Virus record (IMG/VR): IMGVR_UViG_3300010151_000206
Location: 1 to 22,145 of that record
Length of the DNA stretch: 22,145 bases
Source: a virus
Reading direction: 5' to 3' (one strand)
The notes beneath the pieces were generated by a model. The model was not told the origin of the DNA, did no database searches, and saw only the letters and a program-made list of their open reading frames with translations. Shown here piece by piece: positions 2,026 to 22,145 of the stretch (position 1 is its first letter; every line of letters begins with the position of its first letter). The position numbers and the translations under genes were made by a program.

Positions 2026-2477
2026 TCTGATGCTATGAATCTTAATCCGAGTTCAGCTAATTCAAAGTTTGTTGAATCATAAGTATAATAATATATCTCA
2101 TCATCAGGTCTTCTATGAAATATAGCTGGTTCATTAACTGCATCTAAACTGAATTGCCATTCTTTATCTTCATCAGGTACACCGTATTCTAAATTAAGTT
2201 TTAGATTACGACTTCTTCCCAACATAGTTAAAGGATGAAAAGGCCATCTTTCGAGACCATTTGTTATCAATTCATCAGCTGCATATGATTCGCATCCTGC
2301 CCAAATTTGATTGACTACAGTTTGTTCTGCTACAATTTCCGCCTTAGTCAACGTATTCATCATCTTTGGCATTGCAACTGCAGCTAAAATTCCTAAAATG
2401 ACTATAACCATAATTAGTTCAACTAAAGTAAAACCTTCATTTTTTTTGTATATTAAATACTTAATGAAGTTTTTCAT
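2019..2477 (-). CDS. Type IV pilin-like protein D (prepilin N-methylation signal), 152 aa
   Basis: The product has a class III (prepilin) signal. A 15-residue basic leader ends KKNEG, then come FTLVE with Glu at mature position 5 and the hydrophobic pilin helix LIMVIVILGILAAVAMPKM. In this family the host prepilin peptidase cuts after Gly and methylates the new Phe; the helix then anchors the pilin in the inner membrane until it is polymerised. The globular part (about 110 residues) contains WPFHPLTM and ends with IYYYTYDSTNFELAELGLRF, matching the layout of its two paralogues upstream. Short length and lack of a Cys pair are closer to pseudopilins or minor pilins than to a major pilin. It has a good AGGAGA ribosome binding site. 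No assembly ATPase or peptidase is present in the window. Confidence 0.85.
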   Translation of the reverse strand: MKNFIKYLIYKKNEGFTLVELIMVIVILGILAAVAMPKMMNTLTKAEIVAEQTVVNQIWAGCESYAADELITNGLERWPFHPLTMLGRSRNLKLNLEYGVPDEDKEWQFSLDAVNEPAIFHRRPDDEIYYYTYDSTNFELAELGLRFIASEW

Positions 2478-2478
2478 A

Positions 2479-2946
2479 TTATTCTCCTAAGTCTGATCTA
2501 TAAAGCATTTCGGCTGGAACATAAGGTGGGTCTGAATAACCTAATTCCCCAGTTAATGGGTCGTATGTCCATATAGCCAAACTATCTTGTTTCCGCCTAT
2601 GAACAATTCTGTTTGGATATTGTTGGTCATCTGTGCCTGTAAATATCCAATCGCTATCGTTCATTTCAATCATAGCAGTTTCACCAGTTTTATCATACGC
2701 TGGTGGTACCTTGTTGAGTGCATTGAATGGATTCGATGGCCATTTTAGTATCCCTTCTTCGATATACCGTTCGTGAGACCAAGTGTCTAAAGCAGCCACC
2801 ATACTAATTAAAACCCCTTGTTCGGAGGCTACTTCAGATTGCCTTACGATACCAGCAAATCTTGGAATTGATACAGCCGCTAATATACCGATGATAACCA
2901 TCACCATTATTAGTTCGACCATAGTAAATCCATTTCTGTTACTCAC
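2479..2946 (-). CDS. Type IV pilin-like protein C, 155 aa
   Basis: The start is GTG at 2946, overlapping the last codons of pilin B, so its translation may be coupled to that gene. The leader is only six residues (MSNRNG) before the prepilin cleavage point. It is followed by FTMVE, with the invariant Glu5, and the helix LIMVMVIIGILAAVSIPRF. The globular domain has LKWPSNPFNAL and an HRRKQDSLAIWTYDPLTGEL segment shared in form with the paralogues (WPxxPF, then RR, then W/YxYD, then GxLG). Expected location is the inner membrane, then a pilus-like fibre if host machinery accepts it. It is clearly a paralogue of the gene at 2019-2477 and of the interrupted one at 2939-3394. What it does for the phage is unknown. 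Confidence 0.85.
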   Translation of the reverse strand: MSNRNGFTMVELIMVMVIIGILAAVSIPRFAGIVRQSEVASEQGVLISMVAALDTWSHERYIEEGILKWPSNPFNALNKVPPAYDKTGETAMIEMNDSDWIFTGTDDQQYPNRIVHRRKQDSLAIWTYDPLTGELGYSDPPYVPAEMLYRSDLGE

Positions 2947-3394
2947 TGGACAAACTTTCTCTTCCTAATAGGTACCCTGTAGTATCAGCATCGGTGCCAG
3001 TATTAATACCAGCATCGTAAGCCCACTTCCACCTAGTATTATCAGATCTTTGGTGGGTTATATGAGCGGGATTGCCTTCTACAAATGTCCATTCTTGGTC
3101 CGAGTCAGCATTTGTTCCGTCCGTCGTGTAAGATTGAGGTGGTACTTTAAGAGCATCAAAAGGATTGTCTGGCCATATTCTACGACCACTATCAATCAAC
3201 TTATGTATTGCATGATTCTCTAAAGCTGCCTAAATGTTAGTTATGACTACATATTCAGTGGATAATTCAGAATTGACAATAATATCTATGTATATTGGAA
3301 TAGCTACTGCAGCTAAAATGCCTAAAATGATCATAACCATGATTAACTCAATAAGAGTAAATCCGTTGTGTTTGTTGTTATCTAGTTTCTTCAT
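2939..3394 (-). pseudogene. Type IV pilin-like protein B interrupted by an in-frame amber codon
   Basis: Reading from ATG 3394 gives a complete prepilin start: leader MKKLDNNKHNG, then FTLIE and the helix LIMVMIILGILAAVAIP. The frame then hits TAG at 3232-3230 (codon 55) and stays open in the same frame to a TAA at 2939, giving 151 codons if read through. This is the length of the two paralogues. Residues after the stop (AALENHA, IWPDNPFDALKVPP) align with the paralogues, where the interrupted position carries Trp (pilin D) or Val (pilin C), so a single TGG to TAG change would explain it. TAG ends other genes here (S21, the gp13-like gene, 18052, 20960), so general amber recoding is unlikely. 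Options are a pseudogene, programmed or suppressor readthrough, or a sequence error. Confidence 0.7.
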
Positions 3395-4791: not shown

Positions 4792-7098
4792 TTATTCAGG
4801 GAACGTAGCCCCTGTTGGTTGTAATGTGAAATCAAGCACTATAAATTCTGCCGTCCTAGTCGGTTGTACGAATATTTGACCATATAGAATATTTCTATCT
4901 ACTAAATCTGGTGTGTTGTTGGATGCATCCATAACAACCCTAAATGCTGTTAATCCTGAATTGGATTGTACTTGTTCCATATAAGGATTAACTATACTTA
5001 GAAATTGCTGTCTTGTTTTAGAATTATTTTGTTCAAAAACTAGAAACCTACTTGTGCTTGCTATAAACTTCTTTAACGTAATAAGTAACCTACGAACATT
5101 TACTCGATCCAAAGCAGATGCTTTCATCTGTAATGTTTTTTGACCCCACACACAAACTCCCTGACCTGGGAATATTGCTATAGGATTAACGTTGCTTTCA
5201 TATAATGTATCTCTTGATGAATGTGTAAGTTTTCTTTCAACTTGCTGCACTGAATCAATGATGCCTCTATTTAAACCGGCTGGTGCAAACCATTGCTGAC
5301 CGACTCTATCATTAAAAGCATACACTCCTGCTATTACTACAGAAGGTGGTACCCATACGCCTCCTACTACTGGATCGTTTATTTGTACCCACGGATAATA
5401 CATTGCCGCGTAGCTTGAATCTCTACCTTCCGCTTCACCGGTTGCGGTTGTTATAGCGGAATCGTAAAATACCGGATCTGCTACTATAAAAGCATCACCT
5501 CTTTTTTCAACAGTCTCAATAGCTCTAGTCAAAATAGTTCCGCCACCAGTTCCAGCATCTACTACACCCGGTAGTAGAATTAAGTTAACATCATATTCAT
5601 CTTGGTTACCAAGTAATCTGATAGCATCTATGTAAGCATCTTGTCCACTACCAGCTACGTTAAGATTTAAACCTTGTGAGTTTGTATCTGCAATCTTATC
5701 ATAAAAATTCTTAGGATGTTGAACCGTACCGTCACTTCCTCCACTAAAACTACCACCAAATGAACCACTATTAGATCCACTAAAGAATGTTGGTAGTGAC
5801 CCAGATAATGAATTGAGTCTGAGATTACCATTCTCATCAAGATAATCTACTGTGGTATTCAGCACTTCGACTCTAACATATTTAGAATTGTTTCGATATG
5901 ATCCACTCAACGTTAAATATGGATCATCTGTCCCGCTACCTCTAAGTACTATCTTCTGATCACCAATTACTTTAGCTATGTAATTATTTGAATTTGGATC
6001 TAAAGATAAATTTTTCCAAGATTCAACAGCTTGCTTTTTCTTTATTGTATCATCACCACGACGTATTGCTAAAGAAAATGTACCTTTGTTTTCATTTAGT
6101 GAAGTAATTTCGTATCTAAAATTATTAGCTGATCCTGAAAGCAATAGTCCTTCAGTGCTACCGTGTAAATCAACACCATTCCCACTATTCAAAATTTCAC
6201 CATCAGCATGAGTATGTAATTTAAATACTAACTGTTCAGTTGATTTAGATCCATCATATCTCAATGTGCTAGATAAAACACCTACTTGGTCACCTAGAAA
6301 TGAACCAGTCATACATGAAGATGTGTGGAACGTAAATACATCTGTGCCGGCACCCTTCATTCCGTGTGAATATAAAACGTCTGTTTCACCAGCAACACTA
6401 CCCGTGAAACCTACAGTAAACGCTCCGTCACTACTTGCTGACAAATGAGTTAGTTGGTGTAGTGATTGACTATTATTAATAGCATCTCTCAAGGCAGAAG
6501 CTGCAAAAACGTTAGCGTCTCCATCCGCTCTTGAAGATGTTACAACCCAAATTTCATTAGCTGTATTGTTCATAATGCTAGCTTGTGACCCAGTGAACCG
6601 AAAAGCTACTTTAGTAACTGCACCAAGTCTAGCATCTGATGATGTTACTGAAAATTTAATTGTATCTTTTTGCCAAGCTGCGCTTGATGTTCCAGCATCA
6701 TATCCACCACCTAACAATAAAGATCCAGATCCCTTTGTTAATCTTGAATTTGATTCACCAATAACAAATGGGTCAATTGAAGATGATACTTCAACAGAAG
6801 CACCACCATATGATCCAGCAAGTACTCTAACAACCGTAAGTGCGCTACCATGCTTCAAGTATTCTCTTGCAGTTAATGAAGTCATGTACTGATAATCAGC
6901 ACTACCACTTTCGAATACATCACCAAAGATTTGCTGATACTCGCTATAACTGCCGACTTGTGTTGGTACTCCAGCAGGTCCCCTAACTGTTGGACCGACT
7001 ACAGCCGCTCCAATATCACCAACCCCAGCTGGTAGAAATGTTTGATCTATTTCATTTGTAAATACACCAGGACTTACTACTTTTTCACTTGACGCCAT
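4792..7098 (-). CDS. 18: Tail sheath protein, T4 gp18-like, long paralogue, 768 aa
   Basis: Contractile sheath subunit. The N-terminus (SSEKVVSPGVFTNEIDQTFL, then GPTVRGPAGVPTQV and YSEYQQIFGD) and the C-terminal core (RVNVRRLLITLKKFIA, FVFEQNN-like FLVFEQNNSKTRQQF, NPYMEQVQSNSGL, DRNILYGQIFVQPTRTAEFI) are conserved sheath regions and nearly match the upstream paralogue at 7115-9004. It is about 139 residues longer. Most of the excess is an insert at about residues 112-291 (roughly bases 6226-6770) before the shared FKLHT segment. The insert is rich in Ser, Gly and Thr and probably forms a surface-exposed domain. The gene begins 16 bases after the first sheath gene, with AGGAAA as a modest ribosome binding site. 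Two sheaths in tandem imply duplication followed by specialisation. Confidence 0.9.
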   Translation of the reverse strand: MASSEKVVSPGVFTNEIDQTFLPAGVGDIGAAVVGPTVRGPAGVPTQVGSYSEYQQIFGDVFESGSADYQYMTSLTAREYLKHGSALTVVRVLAGSYGGASVEVSSSIDPFVIGESNSRLTKGSGSLLLGGGYDAGTSSAAWQKDTIKFSVTSSDARLGAVTKVAFRFTGSQASIMNNTANEIWVVTSSRADGDANVFAASALRDAINNSQSLHQLTHLSASSDGAFTVGFTGSVAGETDVLYSHGMKGAGTDVFTFHTSSCMTGSFLGDQVGVLSSTLRYDGSKSTEQLVFKLHTHADGEILNSGNGVDLHGSTEGLLLSGSANNFRYEITSLNENKGTFSLAIRRGDDTIKKKQAVESWKNLSLDPNSNNYIAKVIGDQKIVLRGSGTDDPYLTLSGSYRNNSKYVRVEVLNTTVDYLDENGNLRLNSLSGSLPTFFSGSNSGSFGGSFSGGSDGTVQHPKNFYDKIADTNSQGLNLNVAGSGQDAYIDAIRLLGNQDEYDVNLILLPGVVDAGTGGGTILTRAIETVEKRGDAFIVADPVFYDSAITTATGEAEGRDSSYAAMYYPWVQINDPVVGGVWVPPSVVIAGVYAFNDRVGQQWFAPAGLNRGIIDSVQQVERKLTHSSRDTLYESNVNPIAIFPGQGVCVWGQKTLQMKASALDRVNVRRLLITLKKFIASTSRFLVFEQNNSKTRQQFLSIVNPYMEQVQSNSGLTAFRVVMDASNNTPDLVDRNILYGQIFVQPTRTAEFIVLDFTLQPTGATFPE

Positions 7099-7114
7099 GT
7101 TGGTTTCCTATATC

Positions 7115-9004
7115 TTATTCAGGGAATGTCGCACCTGTCGGTTGAATTGTAAAATCAAGTACAATAAACTCAGCTGTTCTTGTAGGTTGTAAGAATATTT
7201 GACCATATAGAATATTTCTATCTACTAAATCTGGTGTATTATTCGTTTCATCCATAACAACTCTGAATGCATTCAGACCTGAATTGGACTGGACTTGCTC
7301 TAAATAAGGATTCACTATTGCTAGGAATCTTTTTCTAGTTGAAGCGTTGTTTTGCTCAAACACTAAGAACCTTGAAGAACTTGCAATAAACTTCTTGACT
7401 CTTATCATTAATCGTCTTACATTTACTCGGTCTAATGCTGAGGCTTTTTTCTGTAATGTCTTTTGACCCCACACACAAATTCCTTGTCCAGGAAAAGTTG
7501 CTATTGGGTTTACATTAGATTCATATAAATCATCCCTATTGGAATGTGTTAACTTACGCTCAACTTGAACTGCTACATCGATTCCACCTCTATTTAATCC
7601 AGCAGGTGCGAACCAAGGATGTGCTACTTTATCATTGAATGCAAATATACCACCCATTACAACTGATGGTGGTACCCAAACGCTTTTATTTAAATCTGGG
7701 TCTGCGATTTGAACCCAAGGATAATACATTGCTGCATAACTTGAATCTCTGCCTTCTGCTTCACCAGTTGCAGTTGTTATAGCTGCATCGTAAAAAGTTG
7801 GATCTGCAACGGTAAACGCATCCGATCTGTTTTCACACATATCAATTGCTTTTGTGATTAAAGCTCCACAACCCGTTCCGTTATCAATAAGTCCAGGTAA
7901 CAATACTAAGTTAATATCATACTCATCTTGGTTACCTAATAGATTAATAGCATCTTGATATGCTGCAAATCCTCTACCAGTGTTTGATGATGCTCCACCT
8001 GATAAGTCATACCCTTGTGAATTGTCATCTGTTATTTTGTCGTAAAAATTAACAGCGGATGTATCACCCAGTTGATTTCCTAATGAATCGAATCCTATCC
8101 ATCCATCTGATCCACCTACAAATGATCCACTATTAATACCTGGAAGTGAACCAGTAATTACAGCGTGACCGGCAGCGTTTTCTGTGATGTTTCCGTTTGT
8201 ATCTAAATATCCTGCAGTATCTTTTAATACTTCAACTCTGACATACTTAGATTTATTTACATATGATCCACTTAATTGTAAGTACGGTTCAGTTGTTCCA
8301 CTATCTTTTAATGTGTATGACTGATCTCCAATTACCTTTGCAATATAATTTGGTTCACGTGGGTCTAGTGATACGTTATTCCAAGTCTCAAGAGTTTGCT
8401 TTCTCTTGTGAGTGTCATTACCACGTCTAATTAATAATGTAAAAGTACCTTTCTTAGGATTGACAGTAGATACTTCCCATCTTAAATTGCTAGATGAGCC
8501 TGATTTATTTAAATTTGAAGTTGTGAGATCTCCTCCCTCATAACCACCTCCAGTTGGAACAGCTCCATTTAGAATTGAACCGTGTGAGAGTGTATGCAAT
8601 TTAAAAGAATTCTGATCGTGAGCATCCCAATCTGTTGCTGTAGAACTACCGGTATTATACCCCGTCCCTGCAGGACCTATGCTACCAGTTGGAACATTAG
8701 CTACTGCAGTACTATAAGTACCACCTAGTAATCTTACTACTGTTAAAGAAGATCCATGTTTAAGATATTCTCTTGCTGTGTAAGATGTTAGATATGAATA
8801 GTAACCACTACCACTTTTAAATGTATCCCCAAACGTCTGTTGGTATTCTGAATAATTTGTTACTGTTGTTGGTATACCAGCTGGGCCTTTGACTGTTGGA
8901 CCGATTAAAGCGGCTCCAATATCCCCTACTGCGGCTGGTAAAAATGTTTGATCTATTTCGTTAGTAAATACGCCAGGACTTACTACCTTTTCACTTGAGG
9001 GCAT
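7115..9004 (-). CDS. 18: Tail sheath protein, T4 gp18-like, short paralogue, 629 aa
   Basis: Contractile sheath subunit similar in length to T4 gp18 (659 aa). It has the same conserved ends as its neighbour: SSEKVVSPGVFTNEIDQTFL at residues 3-22, GPTVKGPAGIPTTV, YSEYQQTFGD, TAREYLKHGSSLTVVRLLGG, and the C-terminal block NNTPDLVDRNILYGQIFLQP ending FTIQPTGATFPE. The centre (residues 100-330) is Gly/Ser-rich and diverges from the paralogue. A strong AGGAGA site precedes ATG 9004, and a terminator-like hairpin plus the shared A/T-rich element lie just upstream, so a transcription unit probably starts here. It is the better candidate for the ancestral or main sheath because its length is standard. 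Confidence 0.92.
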   Translation of the reverse strand: MPSSEKVVSPGVFTNEIDQTFLPAAVGDIGAALIGPTVKGPAGIPTTVTNYSEYQQTFGDTFKSGSGYYSYLTSYTAREYLKHGSSLTVVRLLGGTYSTAVANVPTGSIGPAGTGYNTGSSTATDWDAHDQNSFKLHTLSHGSILNGAVPTGGGYEGGDLTTSNLNKSGSSSNLRWEVSTVNPKKGTFTLLIRRGNDTHKRKQTLETWNNVSLDPREPNYIAKVIGDQSYTLKDSGTTEPYLQLSGSYVNKSKYVRVEVLKDTAGYLDTNGNITENAAGHAVITGSLPGINSGSFVGGSDGWIGFDSLGNQLGDTSAVNFYDKITDDNSQGYDLSGGASSNTGRGFAAYQDAINLLGNQDEYDINLVLLPGLIDNGTGCGALITKAIDMCENRSDAFTVADPTFYDAAITTATGEAEGRDSSYAAMYYPWVQIADPDLNKSVWVPPSVVMGGIFAFNDKVAHPWFAPAGLNRGGIDVAVQVERKLTHSNRDDLYESNVNPIATFPGQGICVWGQKTLQKKASALDRVNVRRLMIRVKKFIASSSRFLVFEQNNASTRKRFLAIVNPYLEQVQSNSGLNAFRVVMDETNNTPDLVDRNILYGQIFLQPTRTAEFIVLDFTIQPTGATFPE

Positions 9005-10342: not shown

Positions 10343-10700
10343 GTTGAGTTCTCCTTAATGTACGTAATTTTTGACTTTTTGTCATTACCTTTCCTTCATA
10401 AACATCTGATTCTACTGCGTTCTTATCTACATTTGAAATAGCAATCTCTCTTTTTATATCAACTTCTACTGGTGCTGTTTTTAAAGATTTTCCATTTGTA
10501 ATTTTTCCAGCTATTGCATTAGCTAACTGATTTATATCAATATTTGGTTGTTGAGGTGGTAATGGTTTATTATCACCGTACAAATTTAGATCCTCTTCTA
10601 CAACAGTATGTTGAGGTGCTTTCCTAACAATAGGTTTTATCGGTGGATTCCCTGATGTCCTAACGATCCGTTTAGTGCTTGCGAGTGGTTGAACAGCCAT
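10332..10700 (-). CDS. Small basic, proline-rich protein of the neck region, 122 aa
   Basis: No recognised family. The N-terminal half is Pro/Lys-rich and probably disordered (RTSGNPPIKPIVRKAP, NKPLPPQQPNID). A short helix follows (INQLANAIAGKI) and the protein ends in a basic tail, MTKSQKLRTLRRTQRGS. That tail resembles the end of the membrane protein at 20152-20457 (KTQKDKLRALRK), suggesting a shared C-terminal binding element. It overlaps the upstream MIKLK-tagged gene by one base (TAATG) and the downstream gp15-like gene by 11 bases, so it is made together with neck and tail-completion proteins. Confidence 0.7.
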   Translation of the reverse strand: MAVQPLASTKRIVRTSGNPPIKPIVRKAPQHTVVEEDLNLYGDNKPLPPQQPNIDINQLANAIAGKITNGKSLKTAPVEVDIKREIAISNVDKNAVESDVYEGKVMTKSQKLRTLRRTQRGS

Positions 10701-10993
10701 TACGTGAATCTCTCTTTACCAGTACCACTCAATTTTCGTTGTATGTATCCTTGTGCCCACTTACCAGCTTTCTTTAAAATATGTGTACCGGTATCTACTA
10801 CATAATCAGCACCCTTCCCCTTTACAAGTAGATAATAGTCATGTTTTTTAATTCTATATTTTTTTCCGATGGAATGTCGATCAGCTTCATTACTACGATA
10901 TAGTTGAACTTGTCTACCACCTTTTAATCGAGCAGTGCCATAATAGTCGTCACCAACACTCATCTTTTCTAATAATTCTTTTAATTTAATCAT
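10700..10993 (-). CDS. MIKLK-tagged small basic protein, putative internal head protein, 97 aa
   Basis: The N-terminus MIKLKELLEKMSVG matches the tag shared by five accepted genes in 18336-20155, although this gene sits in the neck module. The tag contains the (L/I)-x-E pattern seen at T4 prohead-protease sites (here E-L-L-E|K). The body is a compact, basic, beta-rich domain (YGTARLKGGRQVQLYRS, KKYRIKKHDYYLLVKGKGAD, YVVDTGTHIL) ending in a Lys/Arg-rich helix (GKWAQGYIQRKL). A DNA- or RNA-binding protein packed in the head is a reasonable guess. It directly follows the 41-residue gene (TAA then ATG) and overlaps the next gene by one base. Confidence 0.7.
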   Translation of the reverse strand: MIKLKELLEKMSVGDDYYGTARLKGGRQVQLYRSNEADRHSIGKKYRIKKHDYYLLVKGKGADYVVDTGTHILKKAGKWAQGYIQRKLSGTGKERFT

Positions 10994-13480: not shown

Positions 13481-15160
13481 TTACAGTTTATCTAATCCAT
13501 CAATATGGATCTTACCATAAAACTCAGGTCTGATCATCTTCTTAGCGTAACGAGTCATCACACCTTTTCTTGGAGTAAAATCACTTGGATCATACACAAG
13601 AGGTGTCATGATTAACGGAACGTAAGGAGCATATACAGCACCGGTTTCTAGGAAATTGGATCCACGGAATCCGACAAGAACAGTGTTCTCAGTCATGTAA
13701 GGATTCTTATAGACGTTGAAACGGTTGTTAATACCACCGATTTTCTGTACGCCCATTGCGAATTGTGCTTTATCACCATCTGTATCAGCCATATAGCCAG
13801 GAAGCGATTCAAGAATCGTCGCGACTTTAGGTGAAACAACACAGAAGTTAGCACCACCACGTAGTGTTAATCTGTGAATTTCATTAGATACTTTTTGGAT
13901 CTTCTGCACCAGTGTTTGATACCACTCGAAACGTGTACCGTAGAAGGTTGTGTTTACGAACGCAGTTGAACTGGAGTTGTAATCGTCACCTTGGTTTACG
14001 GACCAGTAATCGACTGTGGAAGCATCACTGATTAACATATCAAGAATCTCAAGATCGATTTCCATTGATACATACTCAGAAAGCATTGAAGTTAACTCTG
14101 CTTCAGCGTCAACACTATGATAAGCGTTAAGGTCTTGAGCAAGCTCAGGAGTCCATACTGCTTTCAACTTACGTGTTTTAGCAACGATAGCACGAGATTT
14201 AAGTTCAATATCTACTTGTGGAATCTGTAAAGAGTCTGCAGTAGCATTGCCACCCGAATCTTCAAAGTCACCACGAGAAGCTTCTGAAGTGTACTTAACG
14301 TATGATGCTGTTATTGACAACAAGTGACCTACAGCGGATGCTGAGTAAATTGCTGACAATGTACCGGCTGTGCCTTCTGCACCAGTGATTTTAGTAAATT
14401 CAGGATAAAACGCATAAATCGGTTTACCTGAACCAATTGTATCACCGTGAGGGCTAGCTGCCGATGGTAATGCACCAGCACCAGAACCTGAATAGAATTG
14501 TGTAGCTCTGATTGACAGTTTGTCAATATCTGTTTCAGTAACAGCTTTTGTTACTTTAAAGATTTGACCTGCGTTCAGAGACTGACTAAATTCAGTGTTA
14601 AAATTAACATCATTCCAACTAGCAACTGCTGTCGTTAATGAATCGTAATTCAATGAGCTTGTTGCGGCTGAGTACCCGTAACGTCCAGCACCATAAAAGC
14701 CATCTTCACCAAAAGGTGCGCTTGACCCGGATGGGCTGTACTTACCAGTTTTACCTTGTAAACTTTCAGCTGATCCTTGACCCATTCTATTATTTCCATA
14801 TTGGAAATCTAGATAGAATACAAGACCAGATGGTAAGTTCATAGGCTGAACTGAAACGAATTCCTGAGCTGCAATCTCACCAAAGATTCTTCGAACCAAT
14901 GGGAGTGCAACACCAGACCATTCTTCATCACCTTTGTACCCACCTAAAGATCCAGCATTTGGACTTGTTGAAGAAGCCTCTTTGATCAATTCACGGGCTT
15001 GATTTTCAAGTAATTGGGCCATGCCACTTCTTTGAAAATCACCGTCAATACCATCAAGTAAACCAGTCTTGTCCCATTTACCGACTAGTTTTTTAGCATC
15101 TTCTTGCTGTTTCTTATAAGGCGAAGCGTCTAGTAATGCGTCGTTTATATAATTTGACAT
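13481..15160 (-). CDS. 23: Major capsid protein, T4 gp23-like, 559 aa
   Basis: Main shell subunit. The N-terminal region (MSNYINDALLDASPYKKQQE, then QRSGMAQLLENQARELIKE) looks like the T4 gp23 delta domain that is removed during maturation. The best cleavage point is after Glu61 in ELIKE|ASSTS; T4 cuts gp23 after Glu65 in LTE|AE. Downstream, VALPLVRRIFGEIAAQEFVS, VQPMNLPSGLVFYLDFQYG and the C-terminal TPRKGVMTRYAKKMIRPEFY are typical of the gp23 family. It starts 15 bases after the scaffold gene with a strong AGGAGA site and looks compositionally like a highly expressed gene (somewhat higher GC). Length is close to T4 (521 aa). Confidence 0.93.
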   Translation of the reverse strand: MSNYINDALLDASPYKKQQEDAKKLVGKWDKTGLLDGIDGDFQRSGMAQLLENQARELIKEASSTSPNAGSLGGYKGDEEWSGVALPLVRRIFGEIAAQEFVSVQPMNLPSGLVFYLDFQYGNNRMGQGSAESLQGKTGKYSPSGSSAPFGEDGFYGAGRYGYSAATSSLNYDSLTTAVASWNDVNFNTEFSQSLNAGQIFKVTKAVTETDIDKLSIRATQFYSGSGAGALPSAASPHGDTIGSGKPIYAFYPEFTKITGAEGTAGTLSAIYSASAVGHLLSITASYVKYTSEASRGDFEDSGGNATADSLQIPQVDIELKSRAIVAKTRKLKAVWTPELAQDLNAYHSVDAEAELTSMLSEYVSMEIDLEILDMLISDASTVDYWSVNQGDDYNSSSTAFVNTTFYGTRFEWYQTLVQKIQKVSNEIHRLTLRGGANFCVVSPKVATILESLPGYMADTDGDKAQFAMGVQKIGGINNRFNVYKNPYMTENTVLVGFRGSNFLETGAVYAPYVPLIMTPLVYDPSDFTPRKGVMTRYAKKMIRPEFYGKIHIDGLDKL

Positions 15161-15175
15161 CTAACTTCTCCTAAG

Positions 15176-16345
15176 TTATTTGATTATACCAGCTAGTTTT
15201 CTAAACCTATCAGCTACCTGACGTTCTTCTGTAATAATTTCAGTTTTACGTCTTGTAGATCCAGCTTTAGCACTTGCTGATTCTTTTAATTTTGATTTGC
15301 GATTTGGTACAGTTTTATCAGAAAAACTCTCGGCAAGTGTAGCGTAAACTAACTTGATCTCACGAGTAGATTGAGCACGATCAAATGTCTCAACAACTCT
15401 AAGTTTTTGACTGTTGTCCAAAGCAAATTCTTTAAACAGTTTGTTTGTAAACAGAAGTTTAGCATTCAAAATGTTGACCTCATGTAGCTTAGCTTTCAAA
15501 AATCTAACTGCAGCTTTGTACTCTTTGAGTTCTTCACTGTCGTCTTCTTCTTTTTCAGCATCTTCACCTTCAGTCATGTCTTCATCATCATCTTCTTCTT
15601 TTTCAGCGTCATCATTTTCAGCTACCATTGCAGGAGTATTACCTACACCAGTATCCTTATCACCAACATGTTCTGGGTCTTCTTTATTCTCTACATCTTC
15701 AGGATAAGCATCATCTGCTTCTGAGATCTTAGAGGTACTACCCATCTCTTCTGGTGGTTGTTCTTTATTGACATCGCCGTCGACATCTTCAGGGTAAGCA
15801 TCGTCCTCTTCATTTAGTTCAGACTCAAGCTCTTTAATGATAGATTCTAGGTCTAGAGTTTCTTGACCAGATCCATCAGGGTCATCAACACCTTCTACTT
15901 CCATCTCATGTTCATCTTCTACGTGCATCTTTTCGTATTTGATACCGTTGATATCAATTACTTCCGGTGCCGGCTCGTCTCCACCAGGAACTTCATCCTG
16001 TGCGGCGATCATGTCTTCCGGTTCCATCTCTTGTTCGATAGCTGGATCTAATTCGTCGTCTTCGACAGCTGGTTCACCAGTTACCGGATCCAATGCAGGC
16101 TCCGGAGCTAGTTCCATTTCATCATCCTCATCTGCCATTGGGTCGATTTCTGGTTCCATTCCTGGTTCCAGTTCATCGTCCTCGTCTGCCATTGGATCTA
16201 ACGGATCTTGTTCACGCAATTTAGCTGATAACATAGATTGAAGTTTTGGTGCGAATGCTTCTTCTAAAGCCATCTTTGCATTTTGTAAAGCTGTTTCACG
16301 AACCGCTTTAGCATCAGCAATAGCTTCTTTCAAAATATCACTCAT
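15176..16345 (-). CDS. 22: Prohead core scaffolding protein, T4 gp22-like, 389 aa
   Basis: Internal scaffold that is assembled inside the prohead and digested before packaging. The N-terminus MSDILKEAIADAKAV resembles T4 gp22 (MLKEQLIAEAQ) and includes LKE|A as a protease-type site. The centre (residues 45-275) is extremely acidic and repetitive: DPMADEDDE twice (50-58 and 68-76), DDAYPEDV twice (181-188 and 211-218, each preceded by a LNE or ISE site), DAEKEEDD twice. The C-terminal third (residues 272-345) is a long helix with LHEVNILNAKLLFTNKLF and ETFDRAQSTREIKLVYATL, as in core proteins of marine T4-like phages, and it ends FRKLAGIIK. It directly precedes the capsid gene, as in T4. Confidence 0.88.
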   Translation of the reverse strand: MSDILKEAIADAKAVRETALQNAKMALEEAFAPKLQSMLSAKLREQDPLDPMADEDDELEPGMEPEIDPMADEDDEMELAPEPALDPVTGEPAVEDDELDPAIEQEMEPEDMIAAQDEVPGGDEPAPEVIDINGIKYEKMHVEDEHEMEVEGVDDPDGSGQETLDLESIIKELESELNEEDDAYPEDVDGDVNKEQPPEEMGSTSKISEADDAYPEDVENKEDPEHVGDKDTGVGNTPAMVAENDDAEKEEDDDEDMTEGEDAEKEEDDSEELKEYKAAVRFLKAKLHEVNILNAKLLFTNKLFKEFALDNSQKLRVVETFDRAQSTREIKLVYATLAESFSDKTVPNRKSKLKESASAKAGSTRRKTEIITEERQVADRFRKLAGIIK

Positions 16346-16486: not shown

Positions 16487-16711
16487 CTAGTTTTCTTTCA
16501 TTTTTTGATATTTTGCTCTAAGTATAGCCATCTTCTTCATATGTCTACGTTTAGTAGATTTTTTGGTGTAATAAGCACGTTCTCTTATCTCAAGTAAGAG
16601 CTCGCTATCTTTAACTTTTTGTTTAAACTTCGATAATGCTTTGTCTATATTGTTGTTATAAACCTTAACGTACAACCCTTTTGTCTTGGGTTCTTTTTGT
16701 CTTCGTGGCAT
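16487..16711 (-). CDS. rpsU: Phage-encoded ribosomal protein bS21, 74 aa
   Basis: The product matches bacterial small-subunit protein bS21 in length (E. coli 71 aa) and pattern. A short basic start is followed by GLYVKVYNNNIDKALSKFKQ (cf. ENEPFDVALRRFKR), then LLLEIRERAYYTKKSTKRRH (cf. [20 protein letters not shown]), then a basic C-terminal helix (MKKMAILRAKYQKMK). bS21 sits next to the anti-Shine-Dalgarno end of 16S rRNA and assists initiation. A phage copy could replace the host protein and bias ribosomes toward phage mRNAs; many genes here have strong AGGAG sites. bS21 genes are known from other phages, including pelagiphages and large phages. Its start lies inside the preceding gene behind an AGGAGG site, and the stop is TAG. 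Confidence 0.88.
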   Translation of the reverse strand: MPRRQKEPKTKGLYVKVYNNNIDKALSKFKQKVKDSELLLEIRERAYYTKKSTKRRHMKKMAILRAKYQKMKEN

Positions 16712-16997
16712 ATAACCTCCTAATTTCTTCTTTTATTATTTGTCGTAATTTCCGTTCAATCTGTGACTCTTTCACATTGCGTGATTCTAAAAATTTGTTT
16801 GCTAGATACCGTTCCTTACCATACTTTGCATGCTCCCATCTTTTTCGAAATGATTTTGGCATTGTCTCATAATCTTCCGACATTTGATTACGTACAAACC
16901 AAGCGACTCTTCTAGCATCCGCGTTTACTAATCTTTTATAACGATTTTCTTCAAGTGTTTTCATCCACTTCGAAATTTCTCTAACCGTTACTTTCAT
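16665..16997 (-). CDS. Small basic helical protein, 110 aa
   Basis: Not recognised. It is strongly basic and predicted mostly helical: VREISKWMKTLEENRYKRLV, ADARRVAWFVRNQMSEDYET, and a C-terminal helix RKLRQIIKEEIRRLYATKTK. The 'LRQIIKEEIRRL' type of helix is frequent in small proteins of T4-like marine phages. It is coupled to the actin-like gene (ATGA overlap) and its last 47 bases overlap the S21 gene. Translation in this trio is therefore probably linked: ATPase, basic protein, S21. An RNA- or DNA-binding role or a partner of the actin-like filament are both possible; the sequence shows neither directly. Confidence 0.65.
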   Translation of the reverse strand: MKVTVREISKWMKTLEENRYKRLVNADARRVAWFVRNQMSEDYETMPKSFRKRWEHAKYGKERYLANKFLESRNVKESQIERKLRQIIKEEIRRLYATKTKRTQDKRVVR

Positions 16998-18043
16998 GTT
17001 ACTTCCCCCTCTGACTGCGCTTCTTCTGCATCCTCTTCTATTAACTCAGCCTCTGATAAACATCCTCTCGATACAGCGCTATGTGCATCCTCTATTAAAA
17101 CTATTTCCGAAATTGGAATTGGAAATGTGTCTTGATCAAATTGTTCGTTAAATACATCTAAAAAACCTTTCACTAGTGCCGTACCACCACCAATAACGAT
17201 TGGTACTGAATTTGGAAATGCTGGTACGTTTGCAGTGCCCTCAAATTGCACTTTTAAATTTGTAAGTAAATAATTTACTAATGCCCCATAATATGATCTG
17301 ATCGCATGTAAAACTGTAAATTCGTCTGAACCTTCGTCATAAATATCTTGTACTATACCTTTAGATAAATCTAGTTGATTTGATGTTTCTTTAACATTAG
17401 ATACTTTTGCAATTGGAACTCCGGTGTCAATACTTACGTTTTTATCTATCCAATCACCACCTCTTGCTACTGAAAAGGATACTGCTGTCATTCCTTGATA
17501 CATAACAGCTATATTACACATTCCAGCTCCCATAGATATACATACTCCAGTTAATTCACTATCTACTAATCCTTCATACCCTAAAGCAACTGCTTCTTCA
17601 ATCTTCTTAACATTATATCCATAACTATCAATAATAGTTTTTAATACATCCTCGTGGTATGAAACTTCTCTATCTGCATCAATTGGTTTTGCTGGAACAC
17701 AGTAAACGCATACTTCATTGTCTTTTTTAGGCGTTCCTAGTAACTCTCCTATTATAGCATTTAAAATTGGTAGAGCATCTTTTTCTTCTGGATTCAATAA
17801 TCCACTTTTCATTGGTCGTCTCAATGTTGATGCACTAAATATCTGAGCATAGTTGAATGCGTGTTTTCCTACAATATGTACTTTATTAGCTTTTTCAACA
17901 AACGGAATATTTTGTCGTTTTAACATACGTTTTGCTTGACCAGCATCACCGTCGACGGTGAGGAAAGCATTTCTTTGTTTTTTTATTGAGTCATCGCGTG
18001 ATGCTATATAAAACGATGTACCACAATCTAAACCTACTGCCAT
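16994..18043 (-). CDS. Actin/MreB/Hsp70-fold ATPase-like protein, divergent, 349 aa
   Basis: The actin-superfamily signatures occur in order: phosphate-1 loop GLDCGTS (residues 4-10), connect-1-like EAVALGYEG (150-158), phosphate-2 loop ISMGAGMCNIAVM (169-181) and adenosine motif VIGGGTALVKGF (283-294). In the phosphate-2 loop the Asp that usually opens the motif (D-x-G-x-G-T) is replaced by Ser170, and the Thr after the last Gly by Met, so hydrolysis may be slow or lost. The C-terminus (from 331) is a short acidic tail. Length fits ParM/MreB-type filaments rather than full Hsp70. A strong AGGAGG lies 4 bases before the ATG. Possible roles are a cytomotive filament for phage DNA or capsid positioning, or an assembly chaperone. 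Nothing in the window resembles a ParR partner or a centromere-like repeat. Confidence 0.8.
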   Translation of the reverse strand: MAVGLDCGTSFYIASRDDSIKKQRNAFLTVDGDAGQAKRMLKRQNIPFVEKANKVHIVGKHAFNYAQIFSASTLRRPMKSGLLNPEEKDALPILNAIIGELLGTPKKDNEVCVYCVPAKPIDADREVSYHEDVLKTIIDSYGYNVKKIEEAVALGYEGLVDSELTGVCISMGAGMCNIAVMYQGMTAVSFSVARGGDWIDKNVSIDTGVPIAKVSNVKETSNQLDLSKGIVQDIYDEGSDEFTVLHAIRSYYGALVNYLLTNLKVQFEGTANVPAFPNSVPIVIGGGTALVKGFLDVFNEQFDQDTFPIPISEIVLIEDAHSAVSRGCLSEAELIEEDAEEAQSEGEVT

Positions 18044-18051
18044 TTTACCTC

Positions 18052-18345
18052 CTAAACCCCATGTACTGGGATATTCAATCTTATTAAGACTTCGATAACA
18101 TTATCAAAATGTTTAGATGGTATTGTTAATACACCTTTTTTTCCTTTTTGTGTAAAAGTATAACCATCTTTCTTTTTTGGACCAGCTACCGGTATACGCA
18201 ATTTCTTCATTGCGGCTAGAACTCGTACTTTAGATGTACGATCTGCTGGTACGGAAAGCTTTTCAACATTAGCTTCTTTAAGTTTTTGGATCTCATCTGA
18301 GACGAGTTCCTTTAATCTGGATCTTGTAATTTTCGTTATGTCCAT
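18052..18345 (-). CDS. Small basic protein with internal L-K-E|A site, 97 aa
   Basis: The N-terminal helix reads ITRSRLKELVSDEIQKLKEA. It does not have the exact MIKLK tag but contains the same kind of cleavage-like motif, LKE|ANVEKL (around residues 22-25). The body is basic with beta character (KVRVLAAMKKLRIPVAG, GYTFTQKGKKGVLTIPS, FDNVIEVLIRLNIPV) and may be a small alpha/beta domain with two related halves, each ending in an 'LRIPV/LNIPV' strand. The gene overlaps its upstream neighbour by 10 bases and ends in TAG eight bases before the actin-like gene. I infer an internal head protein by context; function unknown. Confidence 0.65.
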   Translation of the reverse strand: MDITKITRSRLKELVSDEIQKLKEANVEKLSVPADRTSKVRVLAAMKKLRIPVAGPKKKDGYTFTQKGKKGVLTIPSKHFDNVIEVLIRLNIPVHGV

Positions 18346-18596
18346 TTCATTAACACCTTGTGTAATTTGGAAGCTTCACGTTTGTCAAACTTTATTGTCG
18401 AATTAGATCGACCTCCTACATGGATCGTAATATACCCATTAGAATATTTGGTTATATATGCATTACCTATAGTTTCTTGACCTACTGTTGTCGCTTCACT
18501 GATTGTCTCTTGTTTAATCTGTGATGGAGTTTTGAATGGCGGTTGATCAGCATCCGTATAAATCTTACCTAACATTATATCTTTTAATTTAACCAT
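18336..18596 (-). CDS. Tagged small protein, putative internal head protein, 86 aa
   Basis: The start is set at 18596, where ATG overlaps the previous stop (TAATG); an in-frame start nine bases further up would read into the previous gene and has no support. The N-terminus MVKLKDIMLGKIYTDA is a variant of the MIKLK tag. A second motif, TISE|ATTVGQ, fits (I/L)-x-E|A and would remove about the first 33 residues. The remaining domain is a compact beta-rich unit (GNAYITKYSNGYITIHVGG, STIKFDKREASKLHKVLMKW). This layout of tag, spacer, cleavage-like site and small domain is what one expects for a T4-like internal protein precursor. Function unknown. Confidence 0.65.
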   Translation of the reverse strand: MVKLKDIMLGKIYTDADQPPFKTPSQIKQETISEATTVGQETIGNAYITKYSNGYITIHVGGRSNSTIKFDKREASKLHKVLMKWT

Positions 18597-19183
18597 TAGT
18601 CCCAATCATAATTTTTATCTAAATATTTTAACAATGTATCATTAGCTTTATACAATTTGTTAATCTGAGCTTTTAGCTGTCTGTCTTTCATGTAGTTCGT
18701 ATTTCTATTTGCCAGCCATCCTAGATTTTCTATTGCATCACCTAATGCATAAACTGCAGATCTCATAGAGATTTGACCTTCTTTTAACATATCTTTTAAT
18801 TTGATCATTTCTTTTATACGTTCTTCTTTTCTTACAAGTGGTTTAGGTCTATTCCAAGTCATATCCTTTAACATAGATTCTTTAATAAGTTCTTTTTCTA
18901 AACCTTCAAGTTGTAAATTCAGTTGTTTCCATTTATACCCTCCTTGTTTTCCGAGAGTCTTTTTTAACGAATCTTTAAAGAAATTAAATATCTCATCATT
19001 AACATTAAAATCCACTTCCATCTGCCCACCACCATAATCACGTACCTTTATGTGTTTAATACCGGCTTTTCTCATTATTGGTAATATCTTCTTTTTCATA
19101 AACTTTGTATTTCCGGTAAAAGTATGTTTTTGTTCTTGAAGTTTTTTTATTTTTTCTTTAATAAGTTCTTTTAATTTAATCAT
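18596..19183 (-). CDS. Two-module tagged protein (fusion of two MIKLK units), 195 aa
   Basis: I use ATG 19183 (MIKLKELIKE), directly after the preceding stop. The longer frame from 19222 would overlap the upstream gene by 38 bases and add a non-matching leader. The protein contains the tag twice: residues 1-10 and again at 126-136 (MIKLKDMLKEG), with no stop between. In the middle, ELIKESMLKDMTWNRPKPL (residues 98-116) repeats the start of the upstream gene at 19185-19445. It therefore looks like two tagged genes joined by recombination through that shared segment, or a precursor cut into parts. Module 1 is basic alpha/beta (GIKHIKVRDYGGGQMEVDFN). Module 2 is helical (SAVYALGDAIENLGWLANRN). 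An internal start at 18808 is possible but lacks a good ribosome binding site. Confidence 0.65.
   Translation of the reverse strand: MIKLKELIKEKIKKLQEQKHTFTGNTKFMKKKILPIMRKAGIKHIKVRDYGGGQMEVDFNVNDEIFNFFKDSLKKTLGKQGGYKWKQLNLQLEGLEKELIKESMLKDMTWNRPKPLVRKEERIKEMIKLKDMLKEGQISMRSAVYALGDAIENLGWLANRNTNYMKDRQLKAQINKLYKANDTLLKYLDKNYDWD
18840..18870. repeat. 31-base direct repeat, copy 1
   Basis: This block is identical over 31 bases to 19378-19408 and is followed, after a few mismatches, by a further similar run (attctttaataag). Both copies encode LKDMTWNRPKP in the same frame. It marks a recent duplication or recombination between adjacent tagged genes. Confidence 0.85.
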
Positions 19184-19184
19184 T

Positions 19185-19445
19185 TTACGTAATCCTCTGA
19201 TACATTGCTTTAAATGAAGCAAAAAAAGTGTTATAATTTTTCAAAGCCTTTCCTACCAATCGATTCCCTCCGCTATCGAGATCTCGAGATCTGGTGTGCG
19301 CGTATTTTTTAAATAGTTTTCCTAACCTACTGAACTCTCTGACCAGTTCAGCTAATTCATCAGGAGCTTCGTTAAGCGGTTTAGGTCTATTCCAAGTCAT
19401 ATCCTTTAGTCCATATTCTTTAATAAGCTCTTTTAGTTTAATCAT
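19185..19445 (-). CDS. Tagged small helical protein, putative internal head protein, 86 aa
   Basis: Begins MIKLKELIKEYGLKDMTWNR and continues PKPLNE|APDELAEL, so it carries both the tag and a second LNE|A cleavage-like site (around residues 25-28). The remaining helix-rich domain (LAELVREFSRLGKLFKKYAH, KALKNYNTFFASFKAMYQR) is basic. A perfect 14-base palindrome, AGATCTCGAGATCT (19279-19292), lies inside the coding sequence and is probably incidental. The gene starts one base after the previous stop (TGATATG) and ends one base before the next start. Function unknown; internal head protein is inferred from tag and neighbours. Confidence 0.65.
   Translation of the reverse strand: MIKLKELIKEYGLKDMTWNRPKPLNEAPDELAELVREFSRLGKLFKKYAHTRSRDLDSGGNRLVGKALKNYNTFFASFKAMYQRIT
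19378..19408. repeat. 31-base direct repeat, copy 2
   Basis: Identical over 31 bases to 18840-18870, in the same orientation and reading frame. Here it lies at the 5' end of the 86-residue tagged gene. Confidence 0.85.
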
Positions 19446-19446
19446 A

Positions 19447-19737
19447 TCAGAATACCGACTTTATCACATCAATGTTGGAAAACTTTTTTGCAGCCCTTGC
19501 GAATAACAGCTTATCCAGTGCATGCAAAGCTGCTCTGGTTTCATTGGCCTGCCTAAGTACATCTTCCACGTACATGAGACCCTGATATGCTTTGATGAGT
19601 CTTTTATCCCCGACATGTCTTGCCAAATCTGCTCGAGCTCTTGTGTGATTGTTTCTATCTGTGAGCATCCGGATGGATTCAAGTGCGGCTCCACCGAGCT
19701 CTGCTTTTTCGTTAAGTAGGTTTTTTAGTTTAATCAT
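19447..19737 (-). CDS. Tagged small helical protein of unusual base composition, 96 aa
   Basis: The N-terminus MIKLKNLLNEKAELGG carries the tag with LLNE|K as the cleavage-like point. The rest is an Ala/Arg-rich helical domain (RARADLARHVGDKRLIKAYQ, LMYVEDVLRQANETRAALHA, LDKLLFARAAKKF). By hand count the body is about 47% GC (19481-19710), against roughly a third in the neighbouring gene. The tag codons have the A/T-rich composition of the neighbours. This suggests that a foreign domain was placed behind a resident tag. A good AGGAG site precedes the ATG. Function unknown. Confidence 0.7.
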   Translation of the reverse strand: MIKLKNLLNEKAELGGAALESIRMLTDRNNHTRARADLARHVGDKRLIKAYQGLMYVEDVLRQANETRAALHALDKLLFARAAKKFSNIDVIKSVF

Positions 19738-19750
19738 TATTCAACTCCTA

Positions 19751-20155
19751 TTAGTCATCAAATTGTATGTGTTTTTTAGAAGTTTGTTGTAAAGCCTTTA
19801 GAACTTTGTTAGGATTTTTCAAATTACCTACTACACCCATAGACCTACTGCCTTTAGGATGTATTTCTACATCACCTTTTTTAGTTATTTTAAGAAACCA
19901 CCAATCTCTAAATTTTCCTTTTTTACCATTGTGAGCTACTTGATACTTAATAGCATAATAAGTAGGATGGGGAAACATTACTTCTGACGCAGTCTCAACA
20001 TGCCCACTACCCGAACTACGAAATTTTTTCCAAATCTTATCTAAAGTTTTGTGAACTTCTTGTTTATATTTTTTGGGTACTCCTGTTCCTGACTTTGTTT
20101 TAAGTCTATATACCTTTGAAAAGTCCTCATCTAATAAATCTTTTAGTTTAATCAT
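19751..20155 (-). CDS. Tagged basic protein, putative internal head protein, 134 aa
   Basis: Begins MIKLKDLLDEDFSKVYRLKT, the tag with LLDE as the cleavage-like point. The body is very basic and looks like a compact alpha/beta domain: YKQEVHKTLDKIWKKFRSSG, MFPHPTYYAIKYQVAHNGKK, GKFRDWWFLKITKKGDVEIH, ending KVLKALQQTSKKHIQF. The central 'WWFLKITKKGDVEIHPKG' hairpin may be a nucleic-acid-binding face, but I recognise no family. The start overlaps the previous stop (ATGA), linking it to the membrane protein upstream. Confidence 0.68.
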   Translation of the reverse strand: MIKLKDLLDEDFSKVYRLKTKSGTGVPKKYKQEVHKTLDKIWKKFRSSGSGHVETASEVMFPHPTYYAIKYQVAHNGKKGKFRDWWFLKITKKGDVEIHPKGSRSMGVVGNLKNPNKVLKALQQTSKKHIQFDD

Positions 20156-20460: not shown

Positions 20461-20949
20461 TTACTGTACTTGAACAGCTTGTGTTACAGCGTCACGACGA
20501 TTCTTTAAATACTCATCTGAATCGTCAGTATCACCATCATTATCCACATCACTATCTTCACCACCGACCGGATCCATTGCTTCTTGAATATCATAATACC
20601 TGTTCAATATGCCACCTATATCTTCATATAAAGATGATAATCTATTATTAACAGCACTGTATTCCTTTGCAGCAACTTTAAATTCTTTAACCATTCCGTT
20701 CATCGCTTTCATGTTTCTATTAACCGTAACTTTATCAAACCAATCATCTGATTCTGATAAAACGTGGTTATGAGCTTGTTCTGCTATTTGTACTAGTTGC
20801 TCAGCTATTTCAAGAACATTTACTTCAGAATAAATCGATTTTCCAATATTTCCATATTGAGACACAGCCTCTATAACCGCATGTTTATCAATAGGCTGCT
20901 CATTTTCTTCAAATACCTCAACTAACAAATCTTTTAAATTTGTCGCCAT
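20461..20949 (-). CDS. Helical head-cluster protein with EF-hand-like calcium motif, 162 aa
   Basis: The N-terminus MATNLKDLLVEVFEENEQ is a variant of the tag (LKDLLVE). The middle is a long helical region (NVLEIAEQLVQIAEQAHNHV, GMVKEFKVAAKEYSAVNNRL). Near the end, DIQE|AMDPVGGED gives a cleavage-like site and is followed by DVDNDGDTDDSD, which has the D-x-D-x-D-G spacing of an EF-hand or dockerin calcium loop, then EYLKNRRDAV. If the precursor is cut at IQE|A, the calcium-loop peptide of about 40 residues is released. A strong AGGAG site precedes the ATG. Function unknown; a structural internal protein is most likely by context. Confidence 0.68.
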   Translation of the reverse strand: MATNLKDLLVEVFEENEQPIDKHAVIEAVSQYGNIGKSIYSEVNVLEIAEQLVQIAEQAHNHVLSESDDWFDKVTVNRNMKAMNGMVKEFKVAAKEYSAVNNRLSSLYEDIGGILNRYYDIQEAMDPVGGEDSDVDNDGDTDDSDEYLKNRRDAVTQAVQVQ

Positions 20950-20959
20950 TGTTTTTCTC

Positions 20960-22145
20960 CTACTTTATTTTCCGTAGCGCTTTTTGTGCTACATTTAAAA
21001 ATTTTATTGCTGCTCCAGGGCTTTTATAAACACCCTCTTCAGCTGCTCCTGGATGTTCAGAAATCATATATTCTATTTCTTCTTGAGCATCTCTCAAATG
21101 TTGTGAGAAAGGCATTGCTACTTCCTTCACATGTTCCTTCTTTCCTACAGCAAGCATTTTTTTCGATTTATCTACAAGTTTTTTATAACCATATAAAAAA
21201 TTTAAGCTACGAGCTGCTTTACCTGCTTCTACTTTATAAGTTGTATTATTAATTTGTTTTTTCTGTTTCATTCTTTCAACATCTTGAGCGTATTTTTCCC
21301 AATACTTAATTAACTCAACTGTATTCATCTTTGAAAGTGGTTTGGCTTCTTTTAAGGATTCATACCGAAACTTTCTTGTAAGTTTATTGTGAATTTTATC
21401 AGCCTTAGTCCTATCTGTTATATTTCTAGGTAAATCCATATAAGCCTCAGCACCTTTCTTTTTTATCCAAATGTAGAATCTTCCTTTTTTATCTTGGAAC
21501 ATTTCTGTACTATTTCCCTTGTTATCATTATAACCACCTATATAATTATCGCCTCTTTTTTTATGATGAAACTTACGTTCATTTATGGATTCGGTTTTCC
21601 ATTTATTCTTATCTGCCATTGCAGCTAATTTTTTCCAATCACTTCCCATTTTTCTCGTAACTCGAGTGAACGCCATATTATCGCCCTTTTTTAGATGCAT
21701 CATAAACCTATACAACCCTTCCCAGTTTGGTTCTACATTAATAGTTCTGGCTTCATTTACCCATTCAAAAGATAATTTTTTAAATGCTCCAAGTGCGGAT
21801 GGATGATTTGCAAAATAATCAATAATTTTTAATGCTCCCTGTTGATGTTGTAATTTTACAACACCCAATACCTTCAGAAGTTTGCGAATTGCTGGATTTT
21901 GTAACATTTTATCAACATCTATTTTAAATGCTTCATCTACAGATTCGTCAACGGACTTAACTATATTTTGTATTTTTTGTTTTACAAATTTTTCTTTAGC
22001 ACTACCTCTGAGAGACTTATAGTGTTTTATTACTTTTTCAGCAGTTTCAACATCCATAAAAATACTATCAATTCTTTTACCTTTTTTGGTTTTGAGAATC
22101 TTTCTTATATCGGCTATTTTATTTTGTGCTTCATTTACGGATTCA
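20960..22145 (-). CDS. Putative internal head polyprotein with repeated cleavage-like motifs (5' end outside window)
   Basis: The frame is open through the right edge, so the ATG at 22057 is probably internal; 29 codons precede it inside the window. The product is a very basic chain punctuated by six copies of E-(S/W/H)-(V/I/L)-(N/D/K)-E-(A/R/V): ESVNEA at the edge (22144-22127), then, counting from the ATG at 22057, ESVDEA (38-43), EWVNEA (98-103), ESINER (156-161), ESLKEA (233-238) and EHVKEV (308-313). The spacing is about 58-77 residues. Each fits the (I/L/V)-x-E| rule of T4-type prohead proteases. Segments between are distinct small domains, for example one with FHHKKRGDNYIGGYNDNKG and FYIWIKKKGAEAYMDL. 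I infer a polyprotein of packaged peptides. It ends in TAG. Confidence 0.65.
   Translation of the reverse strand, partial: ESVNEAQNKIADIRKILKTKKGKRIDSIFMDVETAEKVIKHYKSLRGSAKEKFVKQKIQNIVKSVDESVDEAFKIDVDKMLQNPAIRKLLKVLGVVKLQHQQGALKIIDYFANHPSALGAFKKLSFEWVNEARTINVEPNWEGLYRFMMHLKKGDNMAFTRVTRKMGSDWKKLAAMADKNKWKTESINERKFHHKKRGDNYIGGYNDNKGNSTEMFQDKKGRFYIWIKKKGAEAYMDLPRNITDRTKADKIHNKLTRKFRYESLKEAKPLSKMNTVELIKYWEKYAQDVERMKQKKQINNTTYKVEAGKAARSLNFLYGYKKLVDKSKKMLAVGKKEHVKEVAMPFSQHLRDAQEEIEYMISEHPGAAEEGVYKSPGAAIKFLNVAQKALRKIK

Follow-up and report, generated by a model that had tools for sequence, protein, structure and literature searches.

Exchangeable leaders ending in a predicted prohead-protease site point to a probable capsid-targeting system with many cargos in a T4-like phage and its relatives

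Introduction

Why would the major capsid protein (MCP) of a phage and a cluster of small proteins encoded in the same head module carry the same five residues, ELIKE? The question arises from a T4-like phage represented in IMG/VR by a fragment of 22,145 bases (the window), whose genes we called with a simple script. A first-pass annotation had placed ELIKE/ASSTS (the slash marking a predicted cut) at about MCP residues 57–66, had pointed to the same pentamer in several small proteins with a common N-terminal tag, one of them with an internal ELIKE/SM, and had proposed that one protease specificity processes capsid, scaffold and tagged proteins. The pentamer is where it was said to be: it occurs in the MCP (14978–14992) and at three more positions (19416–19430, 19154–19168 and, as the internal copy, 18878–18892), all three within tagged small ORFs, and it is absent from the plus strand of the window. 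The features considered here are collected in Table 1.

Table 1. Coordinates of features in the window
Position	Strand	Feature	Observation
10700..10993	-	Near-match to the tag, MIKLKELLEK, flanked by neck and tail genes	Orthologue MVKLKDLLER (L084); without E10
13481..15160	-	Major capsid protein (gp23 family), 559 aa, predicted propeptide residues 1–61	Pfam Gp23 PF07068 1.1e-76; phrog_138 2.7e-70
14963..14992	-	Predicted maturation site ELIKE/ASSTS, MCP 57–66	h-x-E in 86/86 relatives; P1' A, N, F or S
15176..16345	-	Scaffold-like core protein, MSDILKE/A, ALEE/A and more h-x-E sites	94 homologues; motif 2.8x expected
18052..18345	-	Tag-B protein MDITKITRSRLKELVSDEIQKLKE/A	Cargo shared with relatives, junctions at h-x-E
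18336..18596	-	Protein with leader MVKLKDIMLGKIYTDADQPPFKTPSQIKQETISE/A	Extended-leader pattern as in other tag-A proteins
18596..19183	-	Tagged two-cargo protein MIKLKELIKE/K..., internal ELIKE/SM	Second cargo homologous to tag-B proteins (L344, L001)
18836..18896	-	61-nt leader repeat	Repeat in DNA; 89% to copy at 19374–19434
19185..19445	-	Tagged protein MIKLKELIKE/YGLKDMTWNRPKPLNE/A, extended leader	61-nt leader repeat common with 18836–18896
19447..19737	-	Tagged protein MIKLKNLLNE/K, 96 aa, helical cargo	Homologues' leaders end in h-x-E exactly at junction
19751..20155	-	Tagged protein MIKLKDLLDE/D, 134 aa	Tag A pattern
20461..20949	-	Conserved head-module protein, 162-aa family, leader MATNLKDLLVE/V	108 non-redundant homologues; motif 3.4x
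20960..22057	-	Cargo built of modules, perhaps a polyprotein; junctions SVDE/A, VNE/A, INE/R, VKE/V	Modules separate elsewhere

Results

The MCP sequence around the predicted site reads LLENQARELIKE/ASSTSPNA, with E61 as P1 and the predicted scissile bond between the codons at 14978–14980 and 14975–14977. Across about 80 relatives the region has the form LENQAxQL[IV]xE/[A/S/N/F], and in the MCPs that remained after a 90% identity filter the hydrophobic-x-Glu (h-x-E) at the E61 column is invariant while P2 and P1' vary. We detected no covariation at P2 between MCPs and tags, the residue being the same in 13 of 86 cases against 10.5% expected. Because P2 is not common to MCP and tag, the identity of the pentamer is incidental, and on these alignments the shared element is h-x-E, the published motif of T4 gp21, rather than ELIKE. 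The further proposal that the site lies at the position of the T4 gp23 cut draws on its distance from the N terminus (E61 versus E65 in T4 gp23) and on family membership; a profile alignment of the two proteins covered the C-terminal half and left the N terminus uncovered, and an AlphaFold model of the MCP was set aside for its mean pLDDT of 50.6. Among the peptides that would span predicted cut sites are ARELIKEASST, MIKLKELIKEYG and LEKELIKESML.

A search of the 22-kb fragment's own sequence found no S77 prohead protease gene. The protease of relatives matches Peptidase_S77 (Pfam, 1.2e-29) and has an invariant h-x-E near residue 21 (55/55), mostly followed by S or A. The scaffold-like protein begins with the annotated ILKE/A, in the form MSDILKE/A, and carries further sites at ALEE/A29, ISE/A209, LAE/S339 and LKE/S355; several of its h-x-E columns are invariant among the homologues. 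To compare head with tail proteins, as the first-pass annotation had suggested, we counted [ILV]xE[ASG] in each protein and in shuffled versions of it; members of one family are non-independent, and the enrichments are therefore descriptions rather than tests. Alongside the scaffold and the 162-aa family (Table 1), the motif was enriched in the protease (2.3x), the MCP (1.8x), and tag-A (2.6x) and tag-B (3.1x) proteins, in contrast to the portal (0.46x), terminase (0.70x), neck proteins (0.45–1.0x), the better-sampled sheath (0.8x) and the tube (0.7x); among further tail proteins, a neck/tail family of 286 aa and two small sets of 9 and 12 proteins gave 1.3–1.4x. In the core proteins the mirror motif [ASG]Ex[ILV] was unenriched (0.35–1.4x), as were variants with xD or xQ (0.02–1.1x), whereas the control hxK[ASG] was likewise enriched in the protease (2.4x) and tag-B proteins (2.0x). 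The expected head-versus-tail difference thus appeared for the main head-core and tail families. These sequences support a single h-x-E/ specificity that covers the tagged proteins as well as capsid, scaffold and protease, insofar as h-x-E is conserved and enriched in head-core and tagged proteins; the parts of that proposal which did not survive are the pentamer, which is unconserved, and A/S/G at P1', which is no rule.

The commonest start among 244 loci was MIKLK, and two leaders dominated: A, MIKLKxhhxE, and B, MKITKSxLKEIIREExxKLNE. The leader is common to otherwise unrelated proteins, the 189 non-redundant tag-A proteins falling into 63 cargo clusters, of which 48 are singletons. E10 was retained in 97 of 110 A-type proteins, with residues 6, 9 and 11 variable. 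Compound leaders also occur, in which an inserted WxRKFGEPLPTL or GKVYTDxDxPPFK is followed by a second h-x-E. After E10, the window tags at 19751, 19447, 19185 and 18596 have D, K, Y and K, and in window tagged proteins A/S/G follows internal or second sites only; per cargo cluster, P1' is A/S/G in 30% of tags against a background of 21%. On these grounds we dropped A/S/G at P1' as a rule, and the sequences indicate that it is a preference. Position in the genome was also distinctive: 63 of 201 small ORFs between the protease and the actin/scaffold genes were tagged, and none of the 80 from the tail region was (p = 5e-11).

At the DNA level, viral contigs yielded at least 120 matches to the tag pattern, and cellular genomes totalling 257 Gb yielded six; a gene that by eye resembles uracil-DNA glycosylase contains two of the six. 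Among the tag DNA pattern matches listed, 94 fragments were at least 5 kb long, and in 59 of these we found head or tail markers of the T4 type belonging to this group. Of 17 large contigs with the tag, eight had none of gp23, S77 and the T4 portal on the contig; a recognisable terminase is missing from these eight too, and they may be fragments.

The relation between leader and cargo was clearest where cargos had changed leaders. Taking as the junction the position aligned to tag E10, which itself lies outside the alignment, we found h-x-E exactly at the junction in 18 of 37 homologues with another leader and at offset -1 in seven more, with about 0–1 at most other offsets; h-x-E is a short motif and family counts are non-independent, and merged into six cargo families the figures were four of six at offset 0 and five of six at offset -1. 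In relatives, the 19447 cargo is preceded by ISE/, IAE/, LTE/ or LNE/, and the 20461–20949 protein has leaders MKKLKTLLSE/V and MAKLKDLLSE/V. The 18052 cargo stands behind tag B in L084, L254 and L001 and within longer proteins of L002 and L008, with h-x-E at all junctions. Similarly, the second cargo of the 18596 gene stands behind tag B in L344 and L001, where the junction is again h-x-E; the window gene has a second complete tag inside it, MIKLKDMLKE/GQIS (18779–18808). The 20960–22057 gene consists of at least four modules that are found apart in L207, L001, L256, L095, L100 and others.

We then counted h-x-E at 852 non-redundant internal module starts, restricting the count to shorter proteins and using other residues as controls; a count that included long modular proteins was dropped because it was inflated by those proteins and by BLAST edge effects. 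A shared h-x-E was 2.04 times as frequent at module starts as inside modules, compared with 0.24x for hxK and 0–0.37x for other residues. This pattern is compatible with polyproteins cut within the capsid, as judged from the sequences, but would also fit recombination at leader-encoding sequences, because the leaders are DNA repeats.

Domains could be recognised in a minority of the cargos: Nudix (4e-19), GNAT (3e-8) and a zeta/AAA domain resembling kinases, together with a weak match of the HAD type. Tagged cargos had no match in GenBank phages, and a comparison of the window cargos with PADLOC and PHROGs gave nothing convincing; Pfam assigned no domain to 20960–22057 and gave weak, below-cutoff matches alone for 18596–19183. 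An AF2 model of the 19447 protein (pLDDT 91) has a compact helical domain at about 95 and leader residues 1–10 at 62, with a helix at residues 2–8; a fold search with its cargo returned no PDB relative and one viral model at 49% identity. Separately, a 252-aa tagged ORF of L342 has a tag-A cargo that by eye looks like an ADP-ribosyltransferase (YRGTS ... FSSFS ... EGEVLL) and recalls T4 Alt, with no match in Pfam. T4 IP1–3, which are recognised by their leader, turned out to inhibit restriction enzymes of type IV (PMC12373910), and by analogy a counter-defence role of the cargos is possible.

Several neighbouring genes, all on the minus strand, deserve mention in their own right. An actin-like ATPase (16994–18043; Pfam Volactin, 2.3e-71) adjoins the scaffold genes and is kept in the head module of close relatives. 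A gene for ribosomal protein bS21 (16487–16711; phrog_21469, 2.5e-10) also lies within the head module; Bacteroidetes-linked phages have a similar bS21 placement on the opposite strand (PMC9723584). Farther away are three pilin-like ORFs (GFTLIELIMVMIILGILAAVA) at 2019–3394, downstream of the tail tube gene, and tandem tail sheath paralogues of 768 and 629 aa at 4792–9004. Flavobacterium phage immuto is a cultured relative (MCP identity 50%). Its leader-bearing proteins have the predicted h-x-E ends MADNFNLRSFLTENKLTKNAQLLKE/G, MENFDLKKFLVENKLTTNSKILKE/N and MKKQILSEQFRRMQKLAGIITE/S, and other leader types, FNLRSFLTENKLTKNAQLLKE/ and SEQFRRMQKLAGIITE/, are found there as well (L081 4774–5238 and 10730–12030); SEQFRRMQKLAGIITE resembles the C terminus of the window scaffold, RFRKLAGIIK (15176–15210).

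Short leaders are known from T4 itself, where gp24 loses its first 10 residues (PMC9958956) and where, in IPIII, residues 4 and 7 serve targeting and residues 8 and 10 processing at an L/I-x-E motif (PMC9026906). The T4 leaders, taken from AF158101, read MAKINELLRE/S for gp24 and MKTYQEFIAE/A for IPII and IPIII. We built a tag-A profile from one sequence per cargo cluster, unfitted to T4, and scored it on 333 ATG frames in 46 kb of T4: gp24 ranked 1st, Alt 4th, IPIII 7th and IPII 8th. A rule that merges the residues published for T4 with those of the tag (hydrophobic at 4 and 7, I, L, V or M at 8, E at 10) retrieved from the T4 frames exactly gp24, IPIII and IPII (p = 2e-5). The small genes had been linked to head maturation without recourse to homology; that reading stands, and the matches in profile, length and register place the link to T4 closer than had been stated, because the tag resembles a T4-type capsid-targeting sequence.

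Discussion

Given conservation, motif enrichment, gene location, leader exchange at h-x-E and the match to T4 propeptides, we consider it highly probable that these genes form a capsid-targeting system like that of T4 gp24 and the internal proteins, in which leaders can be swapped, cargos are numerous and some precursors may be polyproteins; that the leaders are cut and the proteins packaged and injected, and what the cargos do, we infer from this. In such a system the leader would bind the prohead scaffold core through hydrophobic residues 4 and 7, and its end, with I/L at residue 8 and E at residue 10, would be the prohead protease cut site. The S77 protease, which relatives encode upstream of the region corresponding to the fragment, would cut the MCP after E61 during maturation, the scaffold at many h-x-E sites and itself near residue 21. 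Leaders would likewise be trimmed off the tagged proteins, which would stay in the head and probably be injected. The leaders themselves would be exchangeable modules (short A, longer B, and compound forms with a second h-x-E), and some genes would encode strings of cargos separable by the protease.

The leader might instead be an uncut amphipathic helix or a translation start cassette that has spread by gene conversion, its likeness to a protease site being incidental. Part of the likeness among tags does come from copying, because the leaders are near-identical DNA repeats and codon diversity in the tags is below background (I2 is ATT in 90 of 98), and the modelled leader helix would suit this account; yet the window tags show synonymous differences at L4 and L7, E10 is retained while residues 6 and 9 vary, unrelated leaders that have been swapped also end in h-x-E at the same residue, and the best T4 match of the tag is gp24, so that we regard this explanation as unlikely. 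It strikes us as quite improbable that the leaders target without being processed, the site staying mostly uncut and the h-x-E enrichment reflecting helical, acidic core proteins. Core proteins are indeed helical and acidic, E10 is followed by K, Y or D in several window tags, and T4 leaders with Asp at residue 10 are still targeted although their processing is blocked (PMC9026906); composition of this kind is nevertheless at odds with the behaviour of the mirror, xD and xQ motifs in the same proteins, and compound leaders carry a second h-x-E ahead of the cargo. That the tag is an import signal for another compartment, such as a phage nucleus or actin-based transport, we find scarcely credible: the actin-like gene does lie between tagged genes and scaffold, but the tags end in a protease motif and resemble T4 head precursors, and the 94 tag-A fragments contain the actin family in nine cases versus the protease in 33.

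Beyond capsid targeting as such, we tentatively suggest, as a reading that could well prove wrong, that modular delivery is widespread among uncultured T4-like phages: exchangeable capsid-address leaders, spread through recombination at protease sites, would mark dozens of effector families, and some genes would encode polyprotein cargos split by the prohead protease in the capsid before injection. Injected phage proteins are hard to recognise because they have no common fold. If uncultured phages, abundant as they are, carry an address label that can be read, candidate injected proteins could be listed and their mature N termini predicted. Such a label would also make packaging and function testable protein by protein.

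Comparison with known systems

Polyvalent proteins of phages and conjugative elements also place several domains in one polypeptide and are thought to be codelivered with DNA and released by peptidases (PMC5512222). They embed peptidase domains, whereas here small modules without a recognised peptidase are bounded by prohead-protease motifs. In phiKZ and SPN3US, as predicted here, many head proteins, including ejection proteins, are cut after Glu by a gp21-related protease, and their propeptides have redundant sites (PMC5694885, PMC9026906); those phages differ in their motif (S/A-x-E or A-x-E), in their mostly long propeptides and in having few common short leaders.

The closest parallel is T4. 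The capsid-targeting sequences of IPII and IPIII and the propeptides of gp24 and Alt are likewise 10-residue N-terminal leaders ending in h-x-E, with hydrophobic residues at 4 and 7, I/L at 8 and E at 10, and there too one leader is common to unrelated proteins and accompanies a gp21/S77 protease (here in relatives) and a gp23-family capsid protein. The tag, however, is closest in sequence to the gp24 propeptide rather than to the internal-protein leader. The present group is also set apart by the number of its cargo families, which runs to tens, by several leaders of interchangeable or compound form, and by leaders inside genes and genes with more than one cargo; its genes lie within the head module rather than at separate loci. 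Compared with the loading of injected proteins in T4, the principle appears the same and the scale larger.
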